Assembly (NCBI GenBank): GCA_002482865.1
Contig: DLGU01000124.1
Span: 1 to 23,176, forward strand
DNA length: 23,176 nucleotides
Source of the DNA: Porphyrobacter sp. UBA7686
Lineage (GTDB): Bacteria > Pseudomonadota > Alphaproteobacteria > Sphingomonadales > Sphingomonadaceae
Direction of reading: 5' to 3'
Part shown: positions 1,749-23,176 of the stretch, one piece after another
Numbering within the stretch: position 1 is the first letter of the stretch
How the letters are laid out: every line of letters begins with the position of its first letter
Notes under the pieces: generated by a model
The model's database searches: none
The model's input: only the letters and a program-made list of their open reading frames with translations
What the model was told of the DNA's origin: nothing
Made by a program: the position numbers and the translations under genes

Positions 1749-1794
1749 GAGCCGGGTTGTCGTGATGTCTCTGGTTCGGGCAACTGGAGTGACC

Positions 1795-4700: not shown

Positions 4701-5244
4701 CCACCTGATCGAACGTTCAAGCACGTTCACCAACGACAATGGCGATATCGACACCGAAGACTTCGCCGGTGAATTCGGCTTCCCGAGCTGGATCGGCCGT
4801 GCGACCTTCAACATCGGCTTGGATGACTTCACCTTCACCTGGCAAACCCGCTATATCGGTTCAGTGGCGCAGGACCCTGTTGGCGTGGATCCGTTCTCGG
4901 ATGCCTTCAGCTTTGGTGAGAACAACACACCCACCACGGGCTTCTTCGGTGACACCTGCCTCGGCGGTGGGTCGCGCACTGGGACTACACCGAACAACGT
5001 GGTTCCGGGTGACGGCATCCTGTGCCGTGACGTTGGCTTCACGGGTGAATACTTCGAGCACGCCGCGTCGGTGCGTTGGGACAATGGCGATCTGCGTATC
5101 ATCGCCGGTGTGACCAACCTGTTCGACCGCAATCCGCCGCTGGTGGACGGCAGCGAAGTGCTGGCAATTGCCAACGCCGCGATCGGTAACGGTTACAACC
5201 TTGATGGTCGTGAGTTCTTCGCCCAGTTGCTGTATCGCTTCTGA
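1795..5244 (+). CDS. TonB-dependent outer-membrane receptor (TBDR1)
   Basis: An outer-membrane beta-barrel transporter that imports a ligand using TonB-ExbBD energy; substrate unknown. The chosen ATG at 1795 has GGAG at 1786-1789 and immediately opens a clean signal peptide (residues 1-29, cleavage after PAYA). The in-frame ATG at 1738 would bury that signal behind 19 odd residues and lies in a hairpin arm. The mature protein starts with an acidic linker, then a TonB-box/plug start (ITVTGSRI, residues 60-67), plug motifs LNLRGLGADRTLILVNGRR and DGASSVYGSDAVAGVVN, and a long barrel ending in the aromatic signature LLYRF. At 1149 residues it is long for a TBDR. The excess includes Asp/Gly-rich loops resembling thrombospondin-3 calcium sites (residues 339-352 and 545-562) and 12 cysteines in six neighbouring pairs. 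It is separated from the downstream S9 peptidase by a strong terminator. Confidence 0.95.
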   Translation: MTKFHSNSIKALAFSASAIAFVIAGPAYAQDAEAQPAEEEEQVDVTAGEAAKAEEKTGNITVTGSRIVRDTYTSISPLQVLTTENQQAVGAFDPSQILQRSEAAAGQQIDATFNGFVLNNGPGSQTLNLRGLGADRTLILVNGRRLAPAGVEGAPSNPSINLIPASLVDRYDILTDGASSVYGSDAVAGVVNVILRKDFDGLEIQANGNINPQGAGEDYTVSAAWGFNTDRAVFGIGLEYQKRDLVRFGDRNFLTGCDAHREIDQNGNIRTLGIRDSALVRRNSGGRITVSDSECKVGALSGRIFIDATRVGSVYYKPGAGNVIADFSENTGLGNREVDFNGDGIRDVDFQDYNNNSNNNPETLDTTFISGQKLYNGFAYGEYTFEGEANITPFFEAQFTRAEISAPNQFQAQIFPFVPDLNPFNPCNIDTNPNGQDCRAADNAFQRRLNPAVFSGPPGTARPLSTGFSLPVSPIIAIRGDRNNNEVTQEQYRGVIGVRGDLPFIGSTWSFEVAGTYSRSVGVSTRNGIREDRLALALGLDPTADYDGDGISDNNGDGVADDYNDAISIFGAFGDPQWIGVCNTAGLANPGQAAADLTEGCVPVNLFAPSLLNTFVGDFATEAERNYLFDQRRFDTTYEQTMLSAYVTGDLFELPAGPVGVVLGGEWREDKIQSDPNVAAANGLYFAFFADSGAAGSKWIRELYGEIEAPLMAGETLVEELTVKAAGRLTDEEFYGTNGTFSVGAGWRPVSPLLIKFNYGTSFRAPNLRENFLLAQSGFLTLFDPCAVPAAAFDPALGYVAGNETREPQVLANCRREGRDPTRVGIDSQGLNTQSNSGVEVTSGGSLEIDPETSRSITTGFAFEEDWASGFEFSFNFNYYDIKLKQSIIEPSAQFIINDCYTRDDATRSPFCDRISSSTVERRLVSDVFSGFLNLDQESVRGIDLNANFGYPVTIGEQEIDLSLNLTANHLIERSSTFTNDNGDIDTEDFAGEFGFPSWIGRATFNIGLDDFTFTWQTRYIGSVAQDPVGVDPFSDAFSFGENNTPTTGFFGDTCLGGGSRTGTTPNNVVPGDGILCRDVGFTGEYFEHAASVRWDNGDLRIIAGVTNLFDRNPPLVDGSEVLAIANAAIGNGYNLDGREFFAQLLYRF

Positions 5245-5269
5245 TCGACGAATGACTTGAATGATGACG

Positions 5270-5310
5270 AAAATGCGGCCTCTCGGCACTTGTCGAGAGG
5301 TCGCATTTTT
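5270..5310 (+). terminator. Rho-independent terminator after TBDR1
   Basis: AAATGCGGCCTCTCG (5271-5285) pairs with CGAGAGGTCGCATTT (5294-5308) through 14 Watson-Crick pairs and one G-U. One more A-T pair extends the base (5270/5309) and the loop is 8 bases. The 3' arm runs into TTTTT and then CGTTT. It lies 26 bases after the TBDR1 stop and should limit read-through into the S9 peptidase gene. Confidence 0.92.
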
Positions 5311-5408
5311 CGTTTAATGGCAGGCGTTCATCCGGCGTTGTCCCTTGGCGTCCGAAAGTTTGCCTCACCTGTTCGGTTCAACAATCTGTCCCCGAGAAAG
5401 AACTGATT

Positions 5409-7490: not shown

Positions 7491-8063
7491 TCACATGACG
7501 CGCCGGCCCTTGACCCCGATTTGTCCGTTTATGCGGATGAAGTAATATCCGAGCGAGGCCTGCTTGAAGACCACTTTGTCGCCCGGCATGATCGGGGCGA
7601 TCTTGCGGGGCGGGCTGTTGATTTCCCACATTGCGCCCTCGGCAGTAGTGAAGCGCCAAGTGCGGGGGCCAGTCTGGCGACCGCTGGCGATCGTCGTCTC
7701 GAACAGGTCTGAAGGCTCGGCCTCGTCATTGGGATCGGCCTTCAACATGTCGATCTCGGGCAAGGTGATGCCAAACAGTTGGCGCCGTGTCTTGCGCACT
7801 TCCTCCCGATCAACAAGCCGGACTTCGCCCGCTTCCACCGCGCCGAGCAGCGCGCCAACCTTGTCGTCATAACAGACCGCCCGCTCGGGGACGCCTGCGA
7901 TGCTGCGGCAGCCGCGTAGGCCGTCGAGCAAGCTAGCGGCCCCTTGTACACCGGGAACCTGAGCGACCACAGCCACGCCGCCCGCCAAGACAAGGGCGAG
8001 GGCTGCGCCGCCGCGCACAAGGCGGCGGTTCGCACGCGGACGTTTCTCTGACTTGCCGATCAT
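7491..8063 (-). CDS. Small membrane-anchored or exported protein of unknown family (Cys-pair / LFG / GVKGRRV protein A)
   Basis: I do not recognise a named family. The 190-residue protein starts at an ATG preceded by AAGGAG eight bases upstream. Its N-terminus is basic (residues 4-17), followed by one hydrophobic segment (about 18-36) that is either an uncleaved anchor or a poor signal peptide, so most of it probably sits in the periplasm. After that come a Cys pair (C52 and C64, the second in AVCYDD), GEVRLVDREEVRKTRRQLFG, a variable acidic linker, a Trp-containing strand region (TTAEGAMWEI), and the C-terminal YYFIRINGQIGVKGRRVM. The same blocks in the same order occur in the protein at 13820-14377, so these are paralogues. 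It is divergent from TBDR2 across a 249-bp region with inverted repeats, suggesting joint regulation. Confidence 0.85.
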   Translation of the reverse strand: MIGKSEKRPRANRRLVRGGAALALVLAGGVAVVAQVPGVQGAASLLDGLRGCRSIAGVPERAVCYDDKVGALLGAVEAGEVRLVDREEVRKTRRQLFGITLPEIDMLKADPNDEAEPSDLFETTIASGRQTGPRTWRFTTAEGAMWEINSPPRKIAPIMPGDKVVFKQASLGYYFIRINGQIGVKGRRVM

Positions 8064-8312: not shown

Positions 8313-11273
8313 ATGCAACGCTTCCACAAGGCATCACTGCTCGCCGGGACGATCATGGCTGGCGCCGTGTTCGCAGCACCGGCCTACGCTCAAACTGAGA
8401 CTGTTTCGAGCGCGGCTGAAGAAACAACCGAATCCACCGCCATTGTCGTCACCGGTTCGCGCATTCAGCGCACCGACCTCCAGTCGACCAGCCCGGTTAC
8501 CGTGGTCTCGGCCGAAGAATTCCGTCTGACCGGCGCGGTCAACGTTGAGCAGGTGCTCAACACGCTGCCCCAGGTTCTTCCCGGCCTGACCGGCTTCTCG
8601 AACAACCCCGGCAACGGCGCGGTCACGCTCAACCTGCGTAACCTTGGCGCCACCCGCACCCTGGTGCTGGTCAATGGCCGCCGCTGGATGTTCTACGATA
8701 CCAACCAGATCGTCGACTTGAACACGATTCCGCAGTTCCTGCTGGGCGGCGTTGACGTCGTGACCGGCGGTGCGTCGGCCGTTTACGGTTCGGACGCGGT
8801 TGCCGGCGTCGTCAACTTCAACCTGCGCGACATCGAAGGTCTCGAACTGGGCGGCAGCTACTCGCTGACCGGTCGCGGCGATGCTGCGCGTTACCAGTTC
8901 AACGCTGCTATCGGTTCGGCGTTTGACGACGGCCGCGGTGCGGTGACGATGTATGCCAACTACACGCGTCGTGACCCGCTGTTTGCCGACCAGCGCGAAT
9001 TCTCTGAACGCGCATCGGGTGATGGTTGCATCGTGCCCGGCAGCACGGGCCGCGGTGACATCGGTACGCCGTTCCCGAGCGGCATTGCCGTGGGCACCTG
9101 TATTGCACGTGGTGGTGCACTCGGCTTCGTGCCGCAGGGTTCGCCGACCACGCCGACCGGCACCTTCAACGCTGGTCCGACGGGCGCGCAATCGACCTAC
9201 ATCTTCAACCCCACCGGCGGTGGTTCGCGTCTGTTCCAGGATCCGGGCGATCTCTATAACTTTGCGCCCGATAACTATATTGTGCTTCCGCAAGAGCGTT
9301 ATCTGCTCGGTGCCTATGGTCATTACGAGTTCACCGACAACATCGAAGCCTATTCGGAACTGTCGTTCGTTCGCAACGATGTGAACACCGAACTCGCGCC
9401 GACCCCGGCGGGTGTTTCGGCGCCGCTGTTCGTCAACAGCCCGTTCTTCAACGACCAGACCCGTGCGCTGCTGCTGCAGAACCCGGTGGCGACTGCGACC
9501 GGCCCGGACTACCGTACCACTTCGGTCAACTTCCGCTTCAATGACATCGGCAGCCGTAACTCGTCGTTCGCTCGCGAAGCGTTCCGCGTGCTTGGCGGTG
9601 TCCGCGGCGGTATCACCGACAACATCAACTTCGACGCGTTCTATTCGTACTCGCGCACGACCAACACCAACATCCAGGCCGGCAACATTGCCCGTAGCCG
9701 CTTCATCAATGCATTGACTGTCGAATTCGCGCCCGGAAGCACGACCGACCTTCGTTGCCGCGATGCAGCTGCGCGTGCCGCAGGGTGTGTGCCGCTCAAC
9801 ATCTTCGGGAACGGCTTGGCCGACCCGGCGGCGCTGCAGTACCTGTCGATCAATGCCACCAACATCACCGAATCCGCACTGACCAACGCCGTGGCTTCGG
9901 TCAACGGCACGCTGTTCAACCTCGGTTTTGGTGCGGATGACATCGGCTTCGCGCTCGGTACTGAATACCGCAAGATGAGCTCGAACTTCATCCCTGACAC
10001 CTTCCTGTCATCGGGCGACGTGCTCGGCTTCAACGCCGGCCTGCCGACCAGCGGCGGTTATGATGTCAAGGAAGTGTTCGGCGAACTTCGTGTGCCGATC
10101 GTGGAAGATGGTCTCATCCACTCGCTCGAAGTGAACGGTGCGTTCCGTTATTCGGACTACTCGCTCGATCGCGTCGGCGGCAACTGGACCTACAACCTCG
10201 GCGGCGACTTCGCCCCGATTGAAGGTATCCGCTTCCGCGGCCAGTATTCGCGCGCAGTCCGCGCTCCGAACGTGCAGGATCTGTTCGGCGGTGCGTCGAC
10301 CGGCTTCCCGGCGGCAACCGATCCGTGCTCGGATCGTGGTCCGAGCGCAGAGCGGACCGACGCGCTTCGTGCCTTCTGCATCGCCTCGGGCGTGCCGGCG
10401 GCAGCGGTGTTCACCCGCGGGGTGCAACCGGCAGCGCAGATCCAGGCCGACTTCGGCGGCAACCCCGATGTGGGCGAGGAAACCTCGGACACCTACACCC
10501 TCGGCGTCGTCATTCAGCCCGCCTTCGTGCCGCGTCTGAACATCACGGTCGACTACTTCAACATCACCGTTGAAGACACGATCAACACCCGTCTGGGCGG
10601 CCTGAATACCGCGCTGTCGCTGTGCTTCAACACGGTGCAGAACCTTCAGGATCCGACCTGCTCGGCCTTCGTCGGCAAGCGTAACACCGGCACCGGCGCA
10701 TTGGGTCTGACATCTGGCGGCCAGAACCCGGCGTTGGTTCAGGACAACGTCGGCAAGCTCGAAACTTCGGGCATCGACGTGCAGGTGGATTACAGCCTTC
10801 CGCTGTTCAACGGCGAACTGGGTCTGTTCTACCTCGGCACCTACCTCGACAAGTATCGCAACACCCCGGTGGCCCTGCTGCCGGAGCGCGAGAACATCGT
10901 CGAAGGTACCTTCGGTCTGCCCGAGTACCGCCACAACGTGCGCGTCACCTACACGCAGGGCCCGGCTCTGTTCTCGGTGCGCTGGCGTCATGAGGGTGCG
11001 ACGCAGGACTTCCGCATCAACAACACCTTCGTTGGCAATGACCGGGTCGCTCCGACGACTCTGCCCCGTCCGACGATCGGTGCGTGGAACTACATCGATC
11101 TCGCGCTCAGCTTCGATATCGACGAGCGCATGACGATGAACGCGGGCGTCAACAACCTGTTCGACAAGGCTCCCCCGGTTCTGGGTGCGCAGGCCGAACA
11201 GAGCAACACCCTGCCGAGCTTCTTCGATGTTCTCGGCCGCGACTTCTTCGTGGGTGTGAACTTCCGCTTCTGA
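8313..11273 (+). CDS. TonB-dependent outer-membrane receptor (TBDR2)
   Basis: A 986-residue TonB-dependent transporter of unknown substrate. The ATG at 8313 has AGGGGA (8299-8304) eight bases upstream. Residues 1-26 are a signal peptide ending APAYA. The plug begins near AIVVTGSRI (43-51), followed by LQSTSPVTVVSAEEF, LNLRNLGATRTLVLVNGRR and VTGGASAVYGSDAVAGVVN. The barrel contains the family block FRGQYSRAVRAPNVQDLF and ends RDFFVGVNFRF with a terminal Phe. Eight cysteines occur as four neighbouring pairs, probably disulfides in external loops. Its plug and barrel motifs are closer to TBDR3 than to TBDR1 (for instance SPVTVVSAEEF against SPVTVVTAEEF). It is monocistronic, with a strong terminator behind it, and divergent from the small protein at 7491-8063. 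Confidence 0.96.
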   Translation: MQRFHKASLLAGTIMAGAVFAAPAYAQTETVSSAAEETTESTAIVVTGSRIQRTDLQSTSPVTVVSAEEFRLTGAVNVEQVLNTLPQVLPGLTGFSNNPGNGAVTLNLRNLGATRTLVLVNGRRWMFYDTNQIVDLNTIPQFLLGGVDVVTGGASAVYGSDAVAGVVNFNLRDIEGLELGGSYSLTGRGDAARYQFNAAIGSAFDDGRGAVTMYANYTRRDPLFADQREFSERASGDGCIVPGSTGRGDIGTPFPSGIAVGTCIARGGALGFVPQGSPTTPTGTFNAGPTGAQSTYIFNPTGGGSRLFQDPGDLYNFAPDNYIVLPQERYLLGAYGHYEFTDNIEAYSELSFVRNDVNTELAPTPAGVSAPLFVNSPFFNDQTRALLLQNPVATATGPDYRTTSVNFRFNDIGSRNSSFAREAFRVLGGVRGGITDNINFDAFYSYSRTTNTNIQAGNIARSRFINALTVEFAPGSTTDLRCRDAAARAAGCVPLNIFGNGLADPAALQYLSINATNITESALTNAVASVNGTLFNLGFGADDIGFALGTEYRKMSSNFIPDTFLSSGDVLGFNAGLPTSGGYDVKEVFGELRVPIVEDGLIHSLEVNGAFRYSDYSLDRVGGNWTYNLGGDFAPIEGIRFRGQYSRAVRAPNVQDLFGGASTGFPAATDPCSDRGPSAERTDALRAFCIASGVPAAAVFTRGVQPAAQIQADFGGNPDVGEETSDTYTLGVVIQPAFVPRLNITVDYFNITVEDTINTRLGGLNTALSLCFNTVQNLQDPTCSAFVGKRNTGTGALGLTSGGQNPALVQDNVGKLETSGIDVQVDYSLPLFNGELGLFYLGTYLDKYRNTPVALLPERENIVEGTFGLPEYRHNVRVTYTQGPALFSVRWRHEGATQDFRINNTFVGNDRVAPTTLPRPTIGAWNYIDLALSFDIDERMTMNAGVNNLFDKAPPVLGAQAEQSNTLPSFFDVLGRDFFVGVNFRF

Positions 11274-11359: not shown

Positions 11360-13042
11360 TCAGTTCGTGGCGCTGACGTCGAATGCCACGGTCATGCGGG
11401 TGCCTTGGGTGATCGGGCGGGTGCCGTGGTAGAGCGTGCTGGGAAACAGCACGAGCGTACCGGGCTGCGGGCGGACCGTGTGCAGGCTGAACAGACCCTC
11501 GGCGAGGCCGGGCGGCGGATTGCCGAGTTCAAGCCAGCCGGGCTGGCCGTCGGCGTTCACTTCGTCCGGTACCAGCCAGTAACTCGCCGAGGACAAGAGC
11601 CCCCGTGGGTGGATATGGGCCGCGTGGTGACCTTGACCGTTGAGCAGGATCGACCAGCTGCCGACAATCGTCCACGGATCGTCCCTGTGCGCAAGCAGGG
11701 GGTGACGCGGATCGGCGGGCGGCAAACCGGCGCGATATTCGGCCATCGCCCCATGAAGTGCCGCTTCGAGCCGTGCGAGCTCAGGTTCGGCGCGAGCGAA
11801 CAGCGCCCCCTTGGTCTGACTGCCGCGCTTGACCGACTGCCCGATCGGCATGGACGAATGGCGGTGCAGCTGGGTCAGGAGCGCGGTCAATTCTTCGCGC
11901 TCGCCTTCGTCCAGCGATAGCGGCAATTGCCGTACCAGCCCTGGCTGGCCGTGGAGCCATTCGTGCCGCGCGTCACCGCTCAGCCGCCAGCACAGGTCTG
12001 TGAGCGCCCACGCGACAACATCGCCGGGCTTGGCGGCGCGCACCGTGGCCAGTTCAGCCTCCGCCCGCGCAATCTCGCCAAGTCGCAGCCAGTTGCGCCC
12101 ACGCGCGGTCGCCCATTCTGCCGTCGCCATCCCTGCAAAAAGATCGAGCACGCCCTGCGCCTCGTCCGCCGCCCCCGCTTCGCCGAGCGCCACCGCCTGA
12201 GCCATCGCAAGCGCGGCGTTATCGGGCCAGGTGGCGCGCGCGCGAGCAAGGATGGCGGCGCTCTCCGCTGGCCGGTCGACCCCCTCAAGCGTCTCGGACC
12301 ATGCCAGCCACACTTCCGGTCCCGCGCCCTGCTGCGCCGCGATTTGGGCGAAGTGATCGGCAAAGTTCGCTTGCTCTCCTGCCGCCCAGCGCAGCTCGGC
12401 ATGCAGCTTGAGCGCTGCGGTCCAGCCGGGCACATGCGTGATGAGCGTCGTCGTGCACTCCAACGCTTCGTCCAGCCTGCCGGCAACTGCGAGTGCCTGT
12501 GCGTAATCGAACAGCAGGTTGGGATCGCCGCGGTTGAGGGTCAAGGCCGTCTCTAGCAGGGCGATCGCACGAGGGTCGCTGCGTTCGAGCGCAAGCCGGG
12601 CGCGACTGCGTGCGGTCTTGGATCCGCTCGGATCGAGCGCCACCGCGCGCGCCATGCTGGCTTCGGCCTCACGGTAACGCATGGCTTGCCGCTCGCTATC
12701 GGCACGCACCCGCCAATAGCCCGGATTATGCGCCGCTACCGCTTCGAATGGAGCGAGCAGGGCGGCGGCGCGTGCGGGCTGTTCCATGCGGCCGAGCGTG
12801 ATGGCCGCGTTGATCCCCGCCTCAACCAGATCGGGCGCGAGCGAAAGCGCCCGTTCGAACAGCGCCAAAGCGCGATCCAGCCGGCCCGCTTTGAAATGAA
12901 AATTGCCCGCACTGTTGGCGAGCCGTGCATCGTCAGGAAAGTCTGCCAACCCGCGCGCGTAAAGGGCCTCCGCCTCGGCATCGCGGCCCTGCGCGGCGAG
13001 CTGGCTCGCTGCCAGTGCCACGCTTTGCGCGCTTCCCGTCAT
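11360..13042 (-). CDS. TPR-repeat protein with C-terminal putative 2OG-Fe(II) oxygenase domain (copy 2)
   Basis: A 560-residue soluble protein with no signal peptide. Residues about 1-330 are tetratricopeptide-like helical repeats (AEALYARGLADFPDDARLANSAGNFHFKAGR and similar; short quotes only). The C-terminal 180 residues match the putative 2OG-Fe(II) oxygenase type seen as Pfam 2OG-FeII_Oxy_5: H473-x-x-H476-x-H478 in HAAHIHPRG, then SSASYW, a distal His539 in FPSTLYHGTRP, and Arg549 as likely 2-oxoglutarate contact. These enzymes use Fe(II), O2 and 2-oxoglutarate to hydroxylate a substrate; the substrate is unknown. It starts 16 bases after the 13059 gene, with GAGAGG six bases before its ATG. 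It is the last gene of the train and a paralogue of 16346-17887, sharing QSVK-x-G-x-QT, GSWS and the iron motifs. The TPR part probably binds a protein partner. Confidence 0.88.
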   Translation of the reverse strand: MTGSAQSVALAASQLAAQGRDAEAEALYARGLADFPDDARLANSAGNFHFKAGRLDRALALFERALSLAPDLVEAGINAAITLGRMEQPARAAALLAPFEAVAAHNPGYWRVRADSERQAMRYREAEASMARAVALDPSGSKTARSRARLALERSDPRAIALLETALTLNRGDPNLLFDYAQALAVAGRLDEALECTTTLITHVPGWTAALKLHAELRWAAGEQANFADHFAQIAAQQGAGPEVWLAWSETLEGVDRPAESAAILARARATWPDNAALAMAQAVALGEAGAADEAQGVLDLFAGMATAEWATARGRNWLRLGEIARAEAELATVRAAKPGDVVAWALTDLCWRLSGDARHEWLHGQPGLVRQLPLSLDEGEREELTALLTQLHRHSSMPIGQSVKRGSQTKGALFARAEPELARLEAALHGAMAEYRAGLPPADPRHPLLAHRDDPWTIVGSWSILLNGQGHHAAHIHPRGLLSSASYWLVPDEVNADGQPGWLELGNPPPGLAEGLFSLHTVRPQPGTLVLFPSTLYHGTRPITQGTRMTVAFDVSATN

Positions 13043-13058
13043 CGTGCGCCTCTCAAGG

Positions 13059-13790
13059 TCACAGGCTGCGCAGCCACCCCGTCACTGCCATTCGTCCGAT
13101 TGGCGCGAATGGCGGGACGTAGCTGACCAGATGTGATTGCGGCACGCGGAACAGGTTGAGCGCGTTGAAGCGGGGACGGAAACCCTCGATCACGTCGCCC
13201 TCGTCATTCAGGAACAGCAGGTAGCCGCCCCAGTCCGGATGCCAATCGTCACGCGCAAGGTTCAGCACGTAGGCGACTTCCCAACCCTCGGCGACATGAC
13301 TGTCGGTGTGGCGGCCAAGATAGTGGCCCGGCGCGAACAGGGTCGCCTGACCATCAGCCTTGACGAGGCCTTCAACGCCGGTGACCTTGCGAACCAGATC
13401 GAGGAAGTCGGGGGTGTTGAGGTGTTCGAGCAGGATCTCGTGCGCGCCGCCCGGATCCCAGCCTTCGCGGATCGCCTCCAGGATCGGGTAATGCGCAAAG
13501 CGGAAGCCGTATTCGCCGCGGGCCGAATGCTGTTCGGCATTTTGCATGGCGTGCCGGAGCGCCTGCTGGCCCTCGGGTGTGCGGCTGCGGGCGGCGCGGA
13601 TGCTGGTGGGCTTTTCGGTCCCAGCGCCGATCGCAATGCCCCAATCCGTACCCCGCGCCAGCACCATCTGGAGTTCGCTGGCGCTATCGGGCGTCAGCAC
13701 ATCGCGCAGCTGAACCCGTCCGGTCGCTGCGAAGCGGGCGGCATAGGCTGGTAAGTCGAGCGCCGGATTGAGTTCGAAAAGGGTCTTCAT
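13059..13790 (-). CDS. 2OG-Fe(II) oxygenase, prolyl-hydroxylase-like
   Basis: A 243-residue cytoplasmic dioxygenase resembling the predicted proline hydroxylase group (EGL-9/Ofd1/prolyl 4-hydroxylase-type fold). The N-terminus (ARFAATGRVQLRDVLTP) is typical of that group. The jelly-roll iron site is visible as His160-Thr-Asp162 in LGRHTDSHV and a distal His219 in VPQSHLVSYVPP. Arg232 in GRMAVTGWLR is a plausible 2-oxoglutarate ligand. GGYLLFLNDEGDV between them is the usual strand-turn region. The ATG has AGGA five bases upstream. It lies 29 bases after the small Cys-pair gene and 16 bases before the terminal TPR-oxygenase, so it is almost certainly co-transcribed. It has no TPR, unlike the other two oxygenases. 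The substrate could be a prolyl or other residue in a protein, or a small molecule; the sequence does not decide. Confidence 0.9.
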   Translation of the reverse strand: MKTLFELNPALDLPAYAARFAATGRVQLRDVLTPDSASELQMVLARGTDWGIAIGAGTEKPTSIRAARSRTPEGQQALRHAMQNAEQHSARGEYGFRFAHYPILEAIREGWDPGGAHEILLEHLNTPDFLDLVRKVTGVEGLVKADGQATLFAPGHYLGRHTDSHVAEGWEVAYVLNLARDDWHPDWGGYLLFLNDEGDVIEGFRPRFNALNLFRVPQSHLVSYVPPFAPIGRMAVTGWLRSL

Positions 13791-13819
13791 GTTTTCCTGA
13801 CTACATCGTCACGTCCGGC

Positions 13820-14377
13820 TCACCGCACGCGCCGTCCCTTGACGCCCTTCTGGCCATCGATCCGCAGGAAATAGGCGCTGAAGGCGCCGCTTTTGATCTC
13901 CAGCGACCTGCCGACCTTGGGCCGCATCAGGCCTGACGGCATCTCGTCGAGCTGCCATTCCGCGCCTTCGGCCGTGGTGATAACGTAGCGACCGTTGACA
14001 CTGCGAACCGCTGCAATGGTGGTGCTGAGTGTGGCGAATTCCTCGGCCTGCTCCGGGTCTTCCTTGTCGCTCTTGCCGCCAAAGATGCCGAGATCGGGGA
14101 GGGTGAAGCCAAACAGCTTGCGCCGCGCCTCGCGCACATCTTCGCGGTCGACGACCCGGACTTCACCGTCGCTGCTGGCGGCAACCATGGCTGACACTGC
14201 GGTGTCATAGCAGGCGAGGCGCTGGGCCGGGTCGGTCTTGGACTGGCACTCGCGCAGCGCGGTGACATAGCTGCTCTCGTCCGGGGCGACCTTGTCTTCA
14301 GCGGCGAGCGGCGCGGCGGCACCTGCGGCAATCGCAAACGCCGTGCAGGCAACGGCGGCAGCACGGATAAGGGTCAT
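13820..14377 (-). CDS. Exported protein of unknown family (Cys-pair / LFG / GVKGRRV protein B)
   Basis: Not a family I can name. The open frame extends to 14416, but the ATG at 14377 is preferred because GGGAGA lies just upstream and it directly opens a signal peptide (residues 1-26, cleavage near PLAA). The 185-residue product carries C44 and C56 (the latter in RLACYD), then EVRVVDREDVREARRKLFG, an acidic linker, TTAEGAEWQL, and the C-terminal AYFLRIDGQKGVKGRRVR. Spacing between the two Cys (12) and all later blocks agree with the paralogue at 7491-8063. The Arg-x-x-Cys-Tyr-Asp element recurs in several unrelated small proteobacterial envelope proteins, where it usually marks a disulfide. 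It lies 81 bases after the TPR-sulfotransferase stop, inside the TBDR3 train, and is the only clearly exported product there besides TBDR3. Confidence 0.87.
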   Translation of the reverse strand: MTLIRAAAVACTAFAIAAGAAAPLAAEDKVAPDESSYVTALRECQSKTDPAQRLACYDTAVSAMVAASSDGEVRVVDREDVREARRKLFGFTLPDLGIFGGKSDKEDPEQAEEFATLSTTIAAVRSVNGRYVITTAEGAEWQLDEMPSGLMRPKVGRSLEIKSGAFSAYFLRIDGQKGVKGRRVR

Positions 14378-14458
14378 GGTGGTCTCTCCCATCAAGGGCC
14401 GTTCAAGCCCTGTCATTTGCGGCCCTGATTACCCCTGCAAGCGGTTCAAGGCAAACCG

Positions 14459-16339
14459 TCAGACCTCGTAGCCCATCCGTTCCGCCCACGGCGCAAGGAT
14501 TGGCATCACAGGCGCGAGTTGATCAGCATAGCGCAGCCAGCGCCCACTCGCGCGGGTGTAGAGCTTCTCGCCGATCTGGGCGTAGCTGGCGGTCTTCACC
14601 CGGCCACGTTCTTTCGCGGTTTCCTCATGGGCAAGCAGGCGGTCATTCCAGTCGAGCCCAAGCCACGACACCAATGGCTGCAACTCGCCGCGCGAATCTT
14701 CGACCAGCCGCTCGTAACGCACCGCGTGGGCGTTGATCGGGAACAGATCGTTCGCCCGGTGCCAAGCGCGGAACACCGCGTCATAGGTCAGCGCGGCTTC
14801 CTCAAGCTCGGTGAAGCTGCGCATCGCGAAATTGAGCGTGAAATTGGCCATGAAGCAGCTCAACACCACGTCGGCCGGGTGACGTTCGGCGAGGATGAAG
14901 CGGGCGTTCGGGAACATCCGGTGGATCTGCACCGCGCGCGCCATGTTGAGCGGGTGCTTGTCGACCAGCCAGCGCTGGCCGTCCCATCCGTGGCCCACAG
15001 CGCTGGCGAAATAGGCCTCGCGGAGCTGCCCGCATTGCTGGGGGTTGAGCGCGGCGAGATCGAAATCTCCCAGCATCCGCAGGATTTCCGCCATCATCGG
15101 GCGTTCCTCCAGCACGTGCAATTCGGGCAGGCCCATCAGCATCGTGTCGAGCAGCGTCGTGCCTGAACGCGGAAAGCCAACCAAGAACACCGGATCGCGC
15201 CGCGCCGGATCACTCGCAAGCGGCGGAGCCCAGCGGGCGGCCCAATCGGGGCTCCAGCGAACCAGATCAGCCTCGACACTTTCCCGGTATGTCGGCCCGT
15301 GGCGGGGCGGCGCTTCGGCGATGGCGGCGGCGTTCATGGCTTCAAAGGCCGCGAAGGCGCGGGGGGCATCGCCGAGCCGCTCGGCGATATTGCCGATCAG
15401 CGCTGCGCGCCGCATCGGATGGATCGTGGCAGGGATCGCCTCTGCGTGGCTTGCCGCATCCTCGAACCGCCCCTCACGCTGGGCGAGCCATGCGTGCAAG
15501 AACGCAACCTCGGGCGGACAGGCTGTTGGGTCGAGGCTGGCGAGAAACGCTCCCAGCGCCTCAGTGCGGTTGGTCGCTTCGTAAAGTCGGCCGAGTTCCA
15601 GCTGCGCCTCGCCAAACTCGGGCCAGCGCTGCACCGCCGCTTCCAGCACGGTGATGGCTTCGTCGAGCAGTTCATTATGCGCCAGCGCCATGCCAAGCTC
15701 GGTCTGTGCGGCACGACTCTCCGGCGCCACCTCGACCGCATCGCGCGCCACCTTGAGGCGCGGTTCGCCTAAGTCGGCCTGACGCAGCACATCAGCGAGG
15801 TTGAGATACATCCCCACCTCATCCGGCTGATAGGTGATCGCGTGTTCGAAGGCGTTGATCGCCTGATCGAAATGGCCAGCGGCGGCGTGGATATTGCCGA
15901 GATTGTTCCAGCTGGCCGCATCTGCCGGTTCACCCTGAAGCACGCGGCCATAGGCCTGCACGGCCAGCGCCATCTCACCGCGTTGCTGACGCACCCAGGC
16001 TTCGATCCGGGCGAGGGCGGGCAGGTCTGAACCCTGCGCCAGCATCAGCGCTTCGTCCTCACGGCCCGCCGCCAGCAGTGCGCGCGCCAGATCGCCGCGG
16101 ATCTCGATATCATCGGGCCGCAACCGGGCGAGCGTTTCGAGATGCGTCACCGCGCGCCGCGCATCGCCCAGTTCGAGCGCGGCGAGGCCAGCAATCGCGA
16201 GGAAGGGCGCACCCGCTTCGGTTGCCGCAGCATGGCGCTCGGCCAGCGCCAGCGCGCCAGCGGCATCACCCGCTTGGCGCAGGCGGATCGCCTCGGTCAG
16301 AGCCGGGGGGAGCGCCGCGGTGGGGGTGGCCTGAGACAT
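14459..16339 (-). CDS. TPR-repeat sulfotransferase
   Basis: A 626-residue soluble protein with TPR repeats over about residues 1-340 (a canonical unit is WNNLGNIHAAAGHFDQAINA) and a sulfotransferase domain over about 380-626. The PAPS 5'-phosphosulfate loop is FPRSGTTLLD (389-398), and the 3'-phosphate site is RHPADVVLS with Arg486 and Ser494, the usual eight-residue spacing. The acidic block EERPMM after the loop may include the catalytic base, by analogy with tyrosylprotein sulfotransferases; that is inference. The enzyme would move sulfate from PAPS to a hydroxyl acceptor, either protein or small molecule. Its ATG is six bases after the stop of the TPR-oxygenase, with AGGA upstream, so the two are translationally close. 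The shared TPR architecture with both flanking oxygenases suggests a common docking partner. Confidence 0.92.
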   Translation of the reverse strand: MSQATPTAALPPALTEAIRLRQAGDAAGALALAERHAAATEAGAPFLAIAGLAALELGDARRAVTHLETLARLRPDDIEIRGDLARALLAAGREDEALMLAQGSDLPALARIEAWVRQQRGEMALAVQAYGRVLQGEPADAASWNNLGNIHAAAGHFDQAINAFEHAITYQPDEVGMYLNLADVLRQADLGEPRLKVARDAVEVAPESRAAQTELGMALAHNELLDEAITVLEAAVQRWPEFGEAQLELGRLYEATNRTEALGAFLASLDPTACPPEVAFLHAWLAQREGRFEDAASHAEAIPATIHPMRRAALIGNIAERLGDAPRAFAAFEAMNAAAIAEAPPRHGPTYRESVEADLVRWSPDWAARWAPPLASDPARRDPVFLVGFPRSGTTLLDTMLMGLPELHVLEERPMMAEILRMLGDFDLAALNPQQCGQLREAYFASAVGHGWDGQRWLVDKHPLNMARAVQIHRMFPNARFILAERHPADVVLSCFMANFTLNFAMRSFTELEEAALTYDAVFRAWHRANDLFPINAHAVRYERLVEDSRGELQPLVSWLGLDWNDRLLAHEETAKERGRVKTASYAQIGEKLYTRASGRWLRYADQLAPVMPILAPWAERMGYEV

Positions 16340-16345
16340 GTCGCG

Positions 16346-17887
16346 TCAATCCTGTAGAGCATGGGCCTGTCGGGGACGGGCAATATCGAAGGCGACCGTC
16401 AGTCGCTCGCCATGGGGGAAGGGGCGCGTACCATGCCACATGGTGGATGGGAACAGCACCAGACGCCCCGGTTTGGGTTCAATGACTTGGAGCGGCGCGA
16501 GGCCGGGCACAAGGTCACGCGCCTCGCCGAGCGAGAGCCAGCCCGCGTGATCATCCGTCCCCCCCGACTTACCCGCTCCAAGCGTTTCGGGCAGTGCGAG
16601 GTACAGGGCCGAACTGAACCAGCCCTGCGGGTGGACGTGATCGGTGTGAAACCCGGCATTCTCCAGTCTGACCGACCACGATCCGGCAATCCGCACCGGA
16701 GCGCGATCGGCGGGCAGGGTAGGGTGCCCGGCTTCGGGCGGCGGAAGCTGCGCGATATGCCGCGCAACGATAGCGAGCAGCCGCGCCTTGAGATTTCGGA
16801 TCGGCGGCTCAATGCGCAGCAGCAGGTTGCCGTCGGTCTGCGTTCCGCCGCGCACCGACTGATCGAGCGGGGCGGCCTTGGCCTGATGCAACCCGCGCAG
16901 ATGCGCGGCCAGAGCGGCGAGTTCTTCAGGCGCAAGGCCGATATCATAGACCCCGACGAGGCGCGGATCGCCCTCAAGCCACTGCGCGCGGGGATCGCCG
17001 GTCATCCGCCACGCCAGCGACAGATAGGGCCACAGCGCCAAGGCTCCGGGTTGGCCGACGCGGGGTTCGAGCAAAGCGGCGGCGGGTCCGGGCTGGTTGC
17101 GACGGATCAGGTGGCGGGCATACATCCACGCCTCGTTTGGGTCAGCGGGCGGCCCGGCGGCGGCGAAATGCGGATCTGCCGCGTCCAACTCGCCGCTTTC
17201 CGAAGCGATATGTCCGGTGATCAGGCTGAGCCAGCGTTGCGACCCCAGCACGGTCTGCGCCTGCGATGCCGCGGCGGCCGCCCGCGGAAGATCGCGGGCT
17301 TGCAGGGCGATCGAGATTGCGAGGTGATGCAGTTCGGGCGCGCGCGGATGCTGAGCTAGCGCCGCACCAACGCTGGCGAGTGGGTCGTCGCCCATCTGTC
17401 CGCGCAAACTGGCAAGGCTGCGATGACCATCGAGCCACAGCGCGTTGGCGGACAGGATGCCGGTCAGGAGTGCGATGCCCTCCTCTGCGCGGCCCTCGGC
17501 CAGCAGGGCAGCGGCCTGGCCCAGCAGGATCCCCCCGTCCCGCGGTGCGAGCGGGGCGGCAGCGGCGAAGAGGTCTGCGGCGGGCAGGCCGGCTTCAAGC
17601 GCGGTGCGCGCGTGGGAATGGGCGATTAGGCCATCCCGGGGGGCGAGGGTGGCTGCGGTGCGGAAGGCTTCGTAGGCGGTGAGGCTCTCTCCGCAGGCGC
17701 GGGCGGTGAGGCCGAGCAATTGCTGGGCCTGCGCATTGTCCGAGTGGCGCGCAGCGAGTCGGCGCGCGTGGGGCAGCAGCAATTCGGGAAAATCGGCGTT
17801 GATGAGGGCAAGGCCCGCACCCAGCGCGGCAGCAGGGTCGGCCAGCGGGAATTGCGCAATCCGGGCGAGGGCTTCGGCGTGCTGCAA
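16346..17887 (-). CDS. TPR-repeat protein with C-terminal putative 2OG-Fe(II) oxygenase domain (copy 1)
   Basis: Paralogue of the 11360 gene. The longest open frame starts at an ATG at 17935 (529 residues), but that ATG is the first base of the TBDR3 terminator stem, and the first codons (MAGRKARHFRFR) are only the translated hairpin and T-run. I prefer the TTG at 17887, with AGGGAA nine bases upstream, giving 513 residues that begin directly in the helical repeats. The N-terminal ~330 residues are degenerate TPR. The oxygenase domain has, numbered from 17935, H430-x-x-H433-x-H435 in HTDHVHPQG, FSSALY, His501 in FPSTMWHGTRP and Arg511. It shares GSWS, QSVR-x-G-x-QT and WRMTGDPRAQWL-type blocks with copy 2. 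It overlaps nothing, and the sulfotransferase follows six bases later. Substrate unknown. Start uncertain, family assignment good. Confidence 0.87.
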   Translation of the reverse strand: MQHAEALARIAQFPLADPAAALGAGLALINADFPELLLPHARRLAARHSDNAQAQQLLGLTARACGESLTAYEAFRTAATLAPRDGLIAHSHARTALEAGLPAADLFAAAAPLAPRDGGILLGQAAALLAEGRAEEGIALLTGILSANALWLDGHRSLASLRGQMGDDPLASVGAALAQHPRAPELHHLAISIALQARDLPRAAAAASQAQTVLGSQRWLSLITGHIASESGELDAADPHFAAAGPPADPNEAWMYARHLIRRNQPGPAAALLEPRVGQPGALALWPYLSLAWRMTGDPRAQWLEGDPRLVGVYDIGLAPEELAALAAHLRGLHQAKAAPLDQSVRGGTQTDGNLLLRIEPPIRNLKARLLAIVARHIAQLPPPEAGHPTLPADRAPVRIAGSWSVRLENAGFHTDHVHPQGWFSSALYLALPETLGAGKSGGTDDHAGWLSLGEARDLVPGLAPLQVIEPKPGRLVLFPSTMWHGTRPFPHGERLTVAFDIARPRQAHALQD

Positions 17888-17903
17888 GCTGACGGGTTCC
17901 CTG

Positions 17904-17935
17904 AAACGAAAATGGCGGGCCTTTCGGCCCGCCAT
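17904..17935 (-). terminator. Rho-independent terminator after TBDR3, overlapping the longest start of the next gene
   Basis: On the minus strand ATGGCGGGCC (17935 to 17926) and GGCCCGCCAT (17921 to 17912) form a perfect 10-bp stem with a GAAA tetraloop, followed by TTTCGTTT. It begins 23 bases after the TBDR3 stop. Transcription into the modification genes therefore needs read-through or a second promoter. Confidence 0.88.
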
Positions 17936-17958
17936 CTCGTGTCTACTGGTTCGGACGC

Positions 17959-20900
17959 TTAGAAATCAAGCGTCACGCCCGCGAACAGGTAACGACCAAG
18001 CGCATCATACTGCTGCGCGTAGACGTTGCCGTTGCACGAACCCGCCGGGCAAGCCTGCGAGCCGGTCGTCGGCGGTGCCTTGTCGAGCACGTTGTTCGCG
18101 CCGAGGACGAAGTTGAAGTTGTCCCCTGCAGCGAAGGTGAAGGTCAGGTCGAAGTAGTTGACGGCGTCGAAGCCGGCAGCACCCGGACGCGCAACCCCAC
18201 CCGGAGCCGGACCAGTGCCGCTCGGGTTGTTGAGGTTGGTGTTCGGATCGACAGCGTCCAGCGTGACGCCGTCGAAGTAACGCCAACGGACCGAGGCACC
18301 GAAGCCGCCGCGGAAGTTGAAGCCGAGACGGGCTTGGTGGCGCCACTCGGGGCTCGGCTGACCGCAAACGTTGCCGTACAGACCGACGCAATCGAAGGTC
18401 TGGTCGAGACCCGGAATGCTGACCCCCGTATCGGTCACCAGCTCATCGAGGTAGGTGCCGAGGAAGTTGAAGGTCAGCGTGCCGAGATCGCCGATTTCGG
18501 TGCTGTAGTTGACCTGAGCGTCGATACCCGAAGTCGAGAAGCCACCGATGTTCTGCGTGACGTTGGTCGTGAAACCAGCCGCCGAGCGCCACAGCGAGCC
18601 CGAGGGATCGCGGTTGATGAGGCCGCAGAAGAACGGATCAGCCGTCGACGTACAAGCCGCCAGGATGGTGTCCGAACCGATGCCGCCGATCGCCTGCGAA
18701 ATGTCGATGTTGAAGTAATCGACGCTGGCGGTGAAGCCAGGCAGGAAGGTCGGGGTCAGCACCACACCGGCAGTGTAGGTGTCGGCAACTTCAGGGTTGA
18801 GGCTGATGTTACCACCGACGAAGCCGTTGTACTGGTCGGCCGGGTTCGGAGCGACGAACTGACCAACAGTCAGGCCTTGGGCCAGACAGCCGGTGTTCGC
18901 GGCAGTGATGACGAAGCCAGCACAGGGGTCCGACGAGCCGTCAAGCGCGACGAGGTTCGGAGCGAACAGATCCTGCACCGTCGGCGCACGCACCGCACGG
19001 TTGTAACCACCGCGGATGCGGATGTCGCGGGTCGGAGCGAACTCACCTTCGATCTTGTAGGTGTCGGTGTTCACGCCGGTGCTGTAATCCGAATAACGGT
19101 AACCGCCGGTGATGGTGAAGTCATACACCCAGCTGTCCTGCGCGATCGGGATACGGACTTCGGTGAAGAATTCCTTCACGTCGAAGCTGCCGCTGACCGG
19201 AAGAGTCGCCGCGCCCTGACCAGCAAGGTCGCCCGTGCTGAAGGCCGAGTCCGAGCTGAACTGGAGGCTTTCCTTACGGTATTCCGCACCGAACACGACA
19301 TCAACGCCCTGGTCGGCCCAGGGAGTCTTGAGGCCGTATTCACCCAGCGAGCCCGACAGGAACGCGTTGGCGACCTGCTGGCTCACGACGCCGCGCGAGA
19401 AGCCCGGAGTTGCGAGGTACTGGACCGAAGCCTGCGACGGGGTAACAGTGCCCGGCGAGAAGATGTCCCAGGGCACGCAGTTCGGATCCGAACCGTCGAG
19501 CGTCGAACGGCAGACGGGGGTACCGCCGGGGCCGTTCACGACATCGAGAGCGCGGCCGAGACGGGTGACCGAGAAGTCGTTCAGATAGGTCTGGGCGTAG
19601 TTGTTACGGCCATACTGGTAGAACGCATCATACGACCAAGCCGGCGACAGATCACCCTTCACACCGATGACGGCGCGATAGCTGACGTGCTGCAGATCGT
19701 CCTGACGACCGCCACCTTCGACGTTACGACGAAGGATCTGCGCGAACGCACGGTTGTAGGTGGTGCCGGTCAGCGGATCGATGAAGTTGAACGGCGTGGT
19801 CGGCAGAAGCGGCTCGCCCAGGCCGCGAGCGACACGAGCAGCGTTTTCGGTTGCGACGTTACCGGTCACGGTGAAGGCATCACCCGGCAGCGGGCTGACG
19901 AGCAGGTTGCCGGCGTTGCAGAAGCTGGCGCGCTGACCGGCCGAAAGCAACGGGTTGTCGCAGTTGATCGACAGGGTGTTACCGAAGTTACCCGACGGAG
20001 CGATCTGGGCGACCGTACGGTCGTCCATGAACATGAACTCCATGTACGGCTTGATCGCGCTCGAGATTTCGTAATCGGCGAACACACCGGCGGTGTAGCG
20101 TTCGTCGGGACGCTGGAAGTAGTTCAGCGGACCGAAGTTGTACGGCGTGAAGCCGGGGAGCAGCGTGCGGTTCGGGCCGAACTGCGCGGTGCTCGAAGTG
20201 AAGTCAGCGCCGGTGCCGGAGTTGAAGAACACGGTGCCAGTGGCCGAGGTGGCCGAGCCGCCGCAGCTGTATTCGCGACCAAGAGTGGTCGTTTGGGCAG
20301 CGGTGTTCGCCGAGAGCGAGCAAGCCGAGTAATCGCGGCGAGCCTGAAGCACCGGATCGATCTTGCGGTAGCCGGCATAGGCGGTGACGCGGCCGCGGCC
20401 ATCGTCGAAGCTGCTGCCGAAGGCAACGGTACCATCGAAGGTGCCGCCATCGGTGACCATGCCGGTCGGGTAGCCGAAGCCACGCGCGTCATTCGCACCG
20501 CGAATGTCGTTCGAGGAACGGTTGTTGTGGTTGTAGACGCCGTAGTTGAGGTTGACCTTGAAACCTTCGAAGTCGGTATCGAGGACAAAGTTCACAACGC
20601 CCGCGACCGCGTCCGCACCGTACACCGACGAAGCACCGCCGGTCAGCACATCGACGCGCTCGATCAGAGCAGCGGGGATGAAGTTGATGTCGGCAGCCGA
20701 AGTGGTCGGCGTGCCCGGCGCCATGCGGCGGCCGTTGATCAGGACCAGCGTACGCTCTGGCCCGAGACCGCGAAGGTCGAGGGTGGCGATACCGCTTGCG
20801 CCGTTGGCGATGTTACCGCCCTGCGCAGCGAACACCTGCGGCAGCGAGTTGATGAGATCTTCCACGCGGGTCGTACCGGTGAGGGCGAATTCCTCGGCGG

Positions 20901-21102
20901 TCACGACGGTGACGGGGCTGGCCGATTCCAGGTTCGGCGAACGCAGACGGGTGCCGGTGACGACAATCGCCTGACCCTGCTCTTCAGCCTCTGCGGTGCT
21001 ATCGGTGGTAACGTCGGCATCCTGCGCGTAGGCAGGAGCGGCGACAGTCAGGGCGATGACGGCAGTTGCCGCACCAGCCTTGAGAAGCGCGTGCTTCTTC
21101 AT
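17959..21102 (-). CDS. TonB-dependent outer-membrane receptor (TBDR3)
   Basis: A 1047-residue TonB-dependent transporter heading the minus-strand gene train. The ATG at 21102 has GAGGAGGA upstream and opens a signal peptide (residues 1-26, ending APAYA). The plug starts at AIVVTGTRLR and shows SPVTVVTAEEF, LDLRGLGPERTLVLINGRR and LTGGASSVYGADAVAGVVNF. The barrel includes IRGGYNRAVRAPTVQDLF and ends GRYLFAGVTLDF with a terminal Phe. Fourteen cysteines occur as seven neighbouring pairs, more than in the other two receptors. The substrate is unknown. Downstream genes encode oxygenases and a sulfotransferase, so the ligand or the receptor itself could be hydroxylated or sulfated. A terminator follows the stop, which should give the receptor higher expression than the enzymes. 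A 13-bp palindrome sits just upstream of the ribosome site. Confidence 0.96.
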   Translation of the reverse strand: MKKHALLKAGAATAVIALTVAAPAYAQDADVTTDSTAEAEEQGQAIVVTGTRLRSPNLESASPVTVVTAEEFALTGTTRVEDLINSLPQVFAAQGGNIANGASGIATLDLRGLGPERTLVLINGRRMAPGTPTTSAADINFIPAALIERVDVLTGGASSVYGADAVAGVVNFVLDTDFEGFKVNLNYGVYNHNNRSSNDIRGANDARGFGYPTGMVTDGGTFDGTVAFGSSFDDGRGRVTAYAGYRKIDPVLQARRDYSACSLSANTAAQTTTLGREYSCGGSATSATGTVFFNSGTGADFTSSTAQFGPNRTLLPGFTPYNFGPLNYFQRPDERYTAGVFADYEISSAIKPYMEFMFMDDRTVAQIAPSGNFGNTLSINCDNPLLSAGQRASFCNAGNLLVSPLPGDAFTVTGNVATENAARVARGLGEPLLPTTPFNFIDPLTGTTYNRAFAQILRRNVEGGGRQDDLQHVSYRAVIGVKGDLSPAWSYDAFYQYGRNNYAQTYLNDFSVTRLGRALDVVNGPGGTPVCRSTLDGSDPNCVPWDIFSPGTVTPSQASVQYLATPGFSRGVVSQQVANAFLSGSLGEYGLKTPWADQGVDVVFGAEYRKESLQFSSDSAFSTGDLAGQGAATLPVSGSFDVKEFFTEVRIPIAQDSWVYDFTITGGYRYSDYSTGVNTDTYKIEGEFAPTRDIRIRGGYNRAVRAPTVQDLFAPNLVALDGSSDPCAGFVITAANTGCLAQGLTVGQFVAPNPADQYNGFVGGNISLNPEVADTYTAGVVLTPTFLPGFTASVDYFNIDISQAIGGIGSDTILAACTSTADPFFCGLINRDPSGSLWRSAAGFTTNVTQNIGGFSTSGIDAQVNYSTEIGDLGTLTFNFLGTYLDELVTDTGVSIPGLDQTFDCVGLYGNVCGQPSPEWRHQARLGFNFRGGFGASVRWRYFDGVTLDAVDPNTNLNNPSGTGPAPGGVARPGAAGFDAVNYFDLTFTFAAGDNFNFVLGANNVLDKAPPTTGSQACPAGSCNGNVYAQQYDALGRYLFAGVTLDF

Positions 21103-22629: not shown

Positions 22630-22708
22630 GTCACCCCGGCGCAGGCCGGGACCCAGGGCCCCAAGCGCCCACTTATCCGCTCGAGATCCCGGCCTTCGCC
22701 GGGATGAC
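22630..22708. repeat. REP-like inverted-repeat doublet
   Basis: Two 24-base units lie in opposite orientation: GTCACCCCGGCGCAGG... (22630-22653) and its near reverse complement ending CGCCGGGATGAC (22685-22708). They differ at 3 of 24 positions. The right unit alone forms an 8-bp stem with a CTTC loop (22686-22705). This form (CCCGGC...GCCGGG flanked by GTCA/TGAC) is a common dispersed intergenic repeat in alphaproteobacteria, especially sphingomonads. It separates the thiolase from the dehydrogenase and may influence mRNA stability or termination between them. Confidence 0.8.
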
Positions 22709-22733
22709 GAAATTTGATTGAGAGGACATTACA

Positions 22734-23176
22734 ATGGAAGTTTCAGCCAACACCCCCGCCGTCGTCACTGGCGGTGCCTCGGGCCTCGGTGCTGCCACGG
22801 CGCGTGCGCTGGCCGCCAAGGGCGCAAAGGTCGCGATCTTCGATATGAACGAGGAGAAGGGCGAAGCGCTTGCCGCGGAAATCGGCGGCGTGTTCTGCAA
22901 GGTCAACGTGACCAGCGATGAAGATGTCGACGCCGGCTTCGCCAAGGCCCGCGCCGCCCACGGGCAGGAGCGCATTCTGGTGAACTGCGCCGGGATCGGC
23001 AACGCGATCAAGACCGCCAGCCGCAGCAAGGAAGACGGCTCGATCAAGCACTTCCCCATCAGCGCTTTCGATTTCGTCATTCAGGTCAATCTGATCGGCA
23101 CCTTCCGCTGCATTGCCAAGTCGGCCGCAGGGATGATGAGCCTCGACCCGCTCGACGAATTCGGTGAGCGCGGCGC
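22734..23176 (+). CDS. Short-chain dehydrogenase, 3-hydroxyacyl-CoA dehydrogenase type-2-like (3' truncated by window)
   Basis: The ATG at 22734 has AGAGGA (22721-22726) seven bases upstream, and the frame stays open to the window edge (147 codons visible; the family is usually near 250-260). It is a classical SDR: the nucleotide-binding TGGASGLG at residues 12-19, Asp37 at the end of the second strand (IFDMN), which favours NAD over NADP, NCAG at 84-87, and the structural/catalytic Asn119 in VIQVNLIGTF. The Ser-Tyr-Lys catalytic residues lie beyond the edge. The insertion between NCAG and the Asn helix (KTASRSKEDGSIKHFP) resembles HSD10/type-2 3-hydroxyacyl-CoA dehydrogenases. It would oxidise 3-hydroxyacyl-CoA to the 3-ketoacyl-CoA used by the adjacent thiolase. 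Confidence 0.9.
   Translation, partial: MEVSANTPAVVTGGASGLGAATARALAAKGAKVAIFDMNEEKGEALAAEIGGVFCKVNVTSDEDVDAGFAKARAAHGQERILVNCAGIGNAIKTASRSKEDGSIKHFPISAFDFVIQVNLIGTFRCIAKSAAGMMSLDPLDEFGERG

Follow-up and report, generated by a model that had tools for sequence, protein, structure and literature searches.

What do two tetratricopeptide repeat (TPR) oxygenases, a prolyl-hydroxylase-like enzyme and a TPR-sulfotransferase act on when their genes adjoin those of outer-membrane receptors? The question is raised by contig DLGU01000124.1 of Porphyrobacter sp. UBA7686 (assembly GCA_002482865.1), which was analyzed over its positions 1 to 23,176 (hereafter the window, i.e., this whole stretch of 23,176 nt) and is one contig of a 2.6 Mb draft genome that is 71% complete. 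On the minus strand of the window, a TonB-dependent receptor (TBDR) gene, TBDR3, heads a train of five further genes, which an earlier note made from the sequence alone had taken for a single modification system tied to this receptor. We found that, in different families, members of a distinct TBDR lineage often have as neighbors TPR-oxygenases and TPR-sulfotransferases that resemble tyrosylprotein sulfotransferases (TPSTs). The best explanation appears to be a receptor-linked polypeptide-modification cassette whose likeliest substrate would be the newly made receptor chain; we assign this reading a probability of roughly 37%. The genes concerned are the following:

17959..21102, minus strand: TBDR3, a TonB-dependent receptor of 1047 aa (plug and barrel above the Pfam cut-off; lineage assigned by FastTree).
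16346..17935, minus strand: OXa, a TPR superhelix plus PF13759 oxygenase of 529 aa, or 513 aa from a TTG at 17887 (PF13759, AlphaFold model, fold comparisons).
14459..16339, minus strand: ST, a TPR superhelix plus TPST-like domain of 626 aa (PF13469 at 128.7 bits, TPST matches, AlphaFold model).
13820..14416, minus strand: CYS, a small protein of 198 aa, or 185 aa from an inner ATG, with a signal-peptide-like start and a Cys pair (open reading frame, ORF; a recurrent TBDR neighbor).
13059..13790, minus strand: PHD, a prolyl-hydroxylase-like oxygenase with an HxD motif seen by eye, second module (PF13661 at 56.1 bits).
11360..13042, minus strand: OXb, a second TPR plus PF13759 oxygenase, second module (PF13759 at 62.2 bits).
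8313..11273, plus strand: TBDR2, a second receptor of the TBDR3 lineage, convergent with OXb (plug and barrel; in the clade of TBDR3).
7491..8063, minus strand: a CYS paralogue adjoining TBDR2 (blastp match to CYS; hidden Markov model, HMM).

All six ORFs of the train were recovered at the places and on the strand described earlier. The gaps between them are 23 bases (TBDR3-OXa) and then 6, 42, 29 and 16 bases; the previously reported gaps of 71 and 81 bases are reproduced with the alternative starts, that is, the TTG of OXa and the inner ATG of CYS, respectively. To assess the conservation of the train, we compared eleven genome loci fetched with ST (L003-L013), the closest of which to the window are from Porphyrobacter and Erythrobacter. 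The order TBDR3-OXa-ST is kept in nine of them (L003-L010 and L012), at 54-98% identity. It is also found in a Sphingomonas locus (L013) at 41-54% identity, where TBDR3 and OXa are separated by a TPR-AspH gene; L011 retains TBDR3 and ST, with no OX detected. This gene order is beyond chance. PHD, OXb and a convergent TBDR2 occur jointly in five of the eleven loci (L003, L004, L006, L007 and L009), and none of the three was seen in the other six, five of which (L005, L008, L010, L012 and L013) nevertheless keep TBDR3, OXa and ST. Because of this joint presence and absence, the train, although real, divides into two modules: a core, TBDR3-OXa-ST-CYS, and a second module, PHD-OXb, that is convergent with TBDR2 and goes with it. 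Thus, the conserved receptor-linked set proposed earlier stands, whereas its unity does not; TBDR2, with which PHD-OXb pairs across loci, had been left out altogether. Each of the two lineage receptors of the window has a TPR-oxygenase of its own.

The relationship of the receptors was analyzed in a FastTree phylogeny of 160 TBDRs. TBDR2 and TBDR3 fall into one clade of 106 receptors (Shimodaira-Hasegawa support 0.97), which contains none of the 24 control TBDRs. This lineage takes in receptors from other families of the same class (L115, L118 and L135) and from another class (L139, L140, L142 and L143). One of the enzymes is encoded within 4 kb of 95 of the 106 clade members, which is not an unbiased rate, because most receptors in the tree were fetched for a nearby OX gene.

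The linkage was also counted starting from the oxygenase. With OXa as the query, 94 of 147 Sphingomonadales genomes gave matches (E 0.001), in part weak, and 80 regions picked by such matches, covering part of the OX places, were inspected with our own ORF picker and HMMs rather than a gene finder. Of the 84 TPR-OX ORFs with a length of 380 aa or more, 58 have a TBDR within 3 kb. The chance of a random gene having a TBDR that near is about 8-12%, a rough estimate that takes 25-42 candidate TBDRs per genome, as counted in eight of nine. The nearest TBDR of the 58 belongs to the receptor lineage in 48 cases, lies outside it in six and is absent from the tree in four. A sulfotransferase is found within 3 kb of 20 of the 84 ORFs. 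In one genome of the order, three TPR-sulfotransferase matches stand in a row within about 5 kb (G022:C71:5881-11005). Beyond the order, a TBDR lies within 3 kb of OX in two of 19 ORFs of a class sample (counted without a TPR check and leaving out a 307-aa ORF in L119) and in four of 10 ORFs of a phylum sample. These four represent four of the five fetched loci of one family (f176) of another class, for which a sixth OX locus exists; L135, in which the receptor is 3-4 kb from OX with ST and a TPR-AspH gene between them, belongs to the phylum sample and is excluded from the four. The earlier note had named confinement of the gene order to close relatives as a result that would speak against its reading; the linkage instead reaches another class. 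The low rates outside the order mean that the oxygenase family is also used in other contexts.

Starting from the receptor gave a similar picture. The best TBDR3 homologue is within 4 kb of a TPR-OX gene in eight of eight other genomes, all of which had been chosen for having OX. Over the 147 genomes, 39 of 82 best homologues among the matches listed are that close to TPR-OX, or 39 of the 54 listed where the genome has a listed TPR-OX place; this count rests on 95 OX places and part of the ST places, with at least four ST-only loci. From 43 receptors lacking OX, we hand-picked 20, chiefly on score, and 12 of these lineage loci adjoin a gene for TPR-AspH (PF05118), ST, ST2 or PHD. Three of the 12 (G038, G123 and G054) were known beforehand to have ST nearby, and without them the count is nine of 17. 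Receptors L199 and L066 lie at contig ends, and L081 has OX about 4 kb away. ST2 is a sulfotransferase-like family, four of 12 members of which match PF13469 weakly (best E 0.0017); it adjoins receptors of the TBDR3 lineage in L197-L213, e.g., at L198:13110-14132. Among the 24 control TBDRs from the same genomes, which are nearer relatives of TBDR3 because they were picked from matches to it, two (L186 and L181) have such an enzyme within 4 kb, and L181 is a homologue of the window's own locus.

Could the linkage merely reflect shared inheritance of an old clpB-thiolase locus, without any functional tie? Indeed, clpB and thiolase genes flank many of the loci. However, loci that lack these flanks show the linkage too, as do loci with other enzyme families and loci of another class, whereas it is mostly missing from the control TBDRs taken from the same genomes, so that we consider inheritance alone very improbable.

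What kind of substrate the enzymes might accept was addressed through their domains and folds. PF13759 is matched far above its cut-off of 27 bits by OXa (70.8 bits) and OXb (62.2 bits), the latter being 36% identical to OXa across OXa residues 91-520. PF13661 in PHD, Sulfotransfer_3 (PF13469) in ST and TPR models in OXb and ST also exceed the Pfam cut-offs. All TPR models remain below the cut-off in OXa, the helical repeat of which is shown by the AlphaFold model (predicted local distance difference test, pLDDT, 93.4). PF05118 (Asp_Arg_Hydrox), the family of AspH, is matched by neither OXa nor OXb; separate TPR-PF05118 (TPR-AspH) neighbors are present in relatives. The canonical metal triad of 2-oxoglutarate-Fe(II) oxygenases is HxD/E...H. 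In the OX family, H433, H435, H501 and R511 are present in 122 of 122 aligned sequences and HxD is not conserved, giving an invariant pattern HxH...H...R; binding of iron by all three histidines would make this metal site an unusual one. PHD, unlike the OX family, carries HxD in its sequence. In structure comparisons, OXa resembles TPR-AspH, the EF-Tu prolyl hydroxylase and PHD2, with CurM also matched, and the closest domain folds, 3bvc and 2rg4, are both uncharacterized. Foldseek ranks AspH first for OXa, at a template modeling score of about 0.3 for whole OXa against AspH; the match therefore reflects domain order and not one rigid body. AspH does not appear among the VIA-align rows shown for OXa, which excludes nothing.

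For ST (AlphaFold model pLDDT 91.7), the catalytic domain matches TPSTs across its length and the TPRs match OGT. With Foldseek, OGT and other TPR proteins rank at the top and the first TPST at rank 29; in a second look with VIA-align the TPSTs lead, rows within 1 Z being tied. R391, G393 and T395 of the loop for 3'-phosphoadenosine 5'-phosphosulfate (PAPS), as well as E412, are invariant in 33 sequences, and E412 aligns with E99 of TPST2, a functional glutamate of the TPSTs. ST starts with TPR helices, and no N-terminal membrane segment is visible by eye. Taken together, the predicted folds and the sequences point to polypeptide rather than small-molecule substrates. This refines the earlier note, which had named an imported ligand or a polypeptide.

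Modification of a small imported ligand, such as an aromatic compound, in the cytoplasm for catabolism or detoxification would fit with the fact that TBDR genes are commonly found near genes needed to use the ligand. The gene divergent from TBDR3 encodes a thiolase, in a position conserved in relatives, and no signal peptide is visible by eye in the four enzymes, as the earlier note had stated. However, three of the four enzymes carry a fused TPR superhelix, the best characterized structural matches (TPST, AspH and prolyl hydroxylases; CurM is different) act on polypeptides, sulfation with PAPS is costly for catabolism, and the train includes no gene for an inner-membrane transporter. This alternative is therefore improbable. 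A different exported protein, either CYS or a general envelope protein that merely shares the locus with the receptor, would agree with the signal-peptide-like start of CYS and its conservation as a neighbor; moreover, some PF13759 and ST relatives are located away from TBDRs. No Pfam family exceeds its cut-off in CYS, and no convincing solved relative was found in the structure-sequence comparison. Its relatives adjoin many TBDRs irrespective of the presence of the enzymes (enzyme-less examples are L194 and L211), and CYS is uncalled in some enzyme loci, e.g., L094 and L100, which makes an exported protein a distinctly improbable substrate.

A more serious competitor is a small peptide, i.e., a siderophore, signal or lasso peptide of the type of ribosomally synthesized and post-translationally modified peptides (RiPPs), that would be tailored by the enzymes and imported by the receptor, with its precursor encoded elsewhere or coming from other cells. 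We compared 27 small intergenic ORFs of the window with 15 loci and found no well-conserved small ORF upstream of TBDR3 or in the train. The ORFs upstream of TBDR3 were rejected as precursors, since they are about 40-66% identical in L005, L008 or L010, where TBDR3 is 80-89% identical. The gaps in the operon, at 6-42 bases, are too short for a precursor gene. The lasso B2 family (PF13471) occurs at 67 places in 49 of the 147 genomes. It was not found in the window's own genome (71% complete); its closest approach to any of the 95 TPR-OX places (those scoring more than about 67 bits) is 22.9 kb, outside the 20-kb limit applied.

Several lines of evidence favor the peptide. The congener G143 has two weak OX matches (43.9 bits, below the list of 95 places) a few kb from a PF13471 place in a lasso-type cluster (L232:765-7406), in which the two TPR-PF13759 oxygenases stand on either side of PqqD; Asn synthase, PqqD and Transglut_core3 are above the cut-off in this cluster and HPr-kinase-like proteins below it. 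A table for Pontixanthobacter and Allopontixanthobacter in PMC10040529 contains, under near-consecutive cluster numbers, lasso B2, a sulfotransferase, an aspartyl beta-hydroxylase, a further sulfotransferase, PqqD and Asn synthase; our guess from this table is that the entries are adjacent in the genome. According to PMC9266682, a lasso precursor is the target of hydroxylation by CanE, and TBDRs occur in lasso isopeptidase clusters. By analogy, these cases support peptide substrates for the oxygenase family and keep the peptide alternative alive. The S9 peptidase that adjoins TBDR1 in the window also speaks for it; the 55 Protein Data Bank sequences matching this peptidase at E 1e-10 are FAP/DPP4-type, acylaminoacyl- and other S9 peptidases, and no lasso isopeptidase is named among them. 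On balance, a peptide ligand is somewhat unlikely, and the receptor is slightly favored over it as the substrate, because each lineage receptor of the window has its own TPR-oxygenase, the gaps hold no precursor, no lasso B2 was found in the draft genome and different enzyme families adjoin the same receptor lineage.

The remaining genes of the window are, on the plus strand, the end of clpB, TBDR1 with the S9 peptidase, which has a signal-peptide-like start (both within 1738-7403), and TBDR2, the end of which faces the end of OXb. At the contig end, positions 22734-23174 (plus strand) hold what looks by eye like the start of a gene resembling short-chain dehydrogenases/reductases, 99% identical in L003; a minus-strand ORF of 135 aa (22673-23080) that overlaps this start is probably spurious.

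If the receptor chain were the substrate, candidate acceptor residues might be recognizable. The plug motif D138-x-N140 (TBDR3 numbering) is among the columns conserved in the 95 linked receptors and lost in eight enzyme-less receptors of the lineage. D..N is present at these positions in 90 of the 95 linked receptors and N..D in one, and N..D is found in five of 11 enzyme-less lineage receptors. However, of 31 receptors that fall outside the lineage and have no linked enzyme, 18 also show D..N, which rules out the motif as a mark of the enzymes; it may reflect phylogeny. Tyrosines such as Y258, Y506, Y758 and Y1038 are more common in 33 ST-linked receptors than in 44 that have neither ST nor ST2, a difference that is inseparable from the TBDR3 subclade.

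The following observations weigh against modification of the receptor chain. Enzyme-linked and enzyme-less receptors are not told apart, independently of phylogeny, by any Tyr, Asp, Asn or Pro. The distances among OX proteins and among TBDRs correlate (r = 0.67, n = 73, shuffle maximum 0.15), as would be expected from common inheritance as well as from partnership, and r falls to 0.27 at receptor distances above 0.5. Of the 54 receptors in the tree that do not belong to the lineage, 23 likewise have an enzyme gene no more than 4 kb away, several of them being second receptors of the same loci, and eight of the 20 sampled OX-less lineage receptors have no such enzyme nearby, one of them at a contig end. 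The orientation of the 58 OX-TBDR pairs is convergent in 34, codirectional in 18 and divergent in six cases; with the convergent order being the most common, co-transcription of OX and TBDR is not needed. Outside Sphingomonadales, 23 of 29 OX ORFs (380 aa or longer) are without a TBDR within 3 kb (five of those from the class lie near contig ends), and no TBDR was detected in the six fetched loci (17 places found) of distant ST relatives from another class. Lastly, as described above, TPR-PF13759 enzymes also occur in a lasso-type cluster.

For the receptor-linked cassette, the following sequence of events can be envisaged. The TPR superhelix of each cytoplasmic enzyme would hold an extended polypeptide, a side chain of which would be hydroxylated by the 2-oxoglutarate oxygenase, and the sulfotransferase would sulfate a tyrosine or a hydroxyl group, with PAPS as the donor. 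Conceivably, the plug or the loops of the receptor chain are modified prior to Sec export, and the hydroxyl and sulfate groups of the mature receptor might then tune ligand binding or protect the surface. The general proposal that bacteria hydroxylate and sulfate their own outer-membrane receptors, with cytoplasmic TPR-TPST-like enzymes and TPR-oxygenases gripping the chain in the manner of AspH and OGT and decorating a dedicated TBDR lineage before export, is a tentative one, with the odds against it. Should the receptor be the substrate, such modification would add a new chemical layer to the surface of aquatic bacteria, with a bearing on how nutrients are taken up and how phages enter; should the enzymes act on a peptide instead, the receptors would lead to a so far unknown family of peptides carrying hydroxyl and sulfate groups. 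In either case, a bacterial TPR-sulfotransferase resembling TPSTs has been identified that is open to assay.

A description of this gene set, or of such a modification of outer-membrane proteins, was not found in the open-access literature searched, and the train differs from each of the known systems that it resembles. It has in common with lasso peptide tailoring by CanE the hydroxylation of a peptide by a 2-oxoglutarate enzyme and with isopeptidase clusters the presence of TBDRs (PMC9266682). However, no lasso precursor, B1, B2 or cyclase was found among the window proteins with Pfam. Bacterial sulfation of a peptide tyrosine is represented by RaxST and RaxX of Xanthomonas, as reported in PMC6637879. 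In contrast to that system, ST carries TPRs, and no RaxX-like precursor or export genes were found in the window. Methanobactin operons also combine a TBDR with a sulfotransferase (MbnT and MbnS), whereas MbnB/MbnC-type genes are missing among the Pfam matches of the window. Human AspH is a TPR protein with Asp/Asn beta-hydroxylase activity; OXa differs from it and from the prolyl hydroxylases in belonging to PF13759 instead of PF05118 and in having HxH...H...R instead of HxD. The TPSTs are type II membrane proteins of the Golgi lumen. ST shares the catalytic domain of TPST1 and TPST2 along its length, but is bacterial, apparently cytoplasmic, fused to an OGT-like TPR superhelix and encoded next to a TBDR. 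Thus, each part belongs to a known family, and it is the combination, together with the tie between a TPR-TPST-like enzyme and a TBDR lineage, that the open-access literature searched did not yield.

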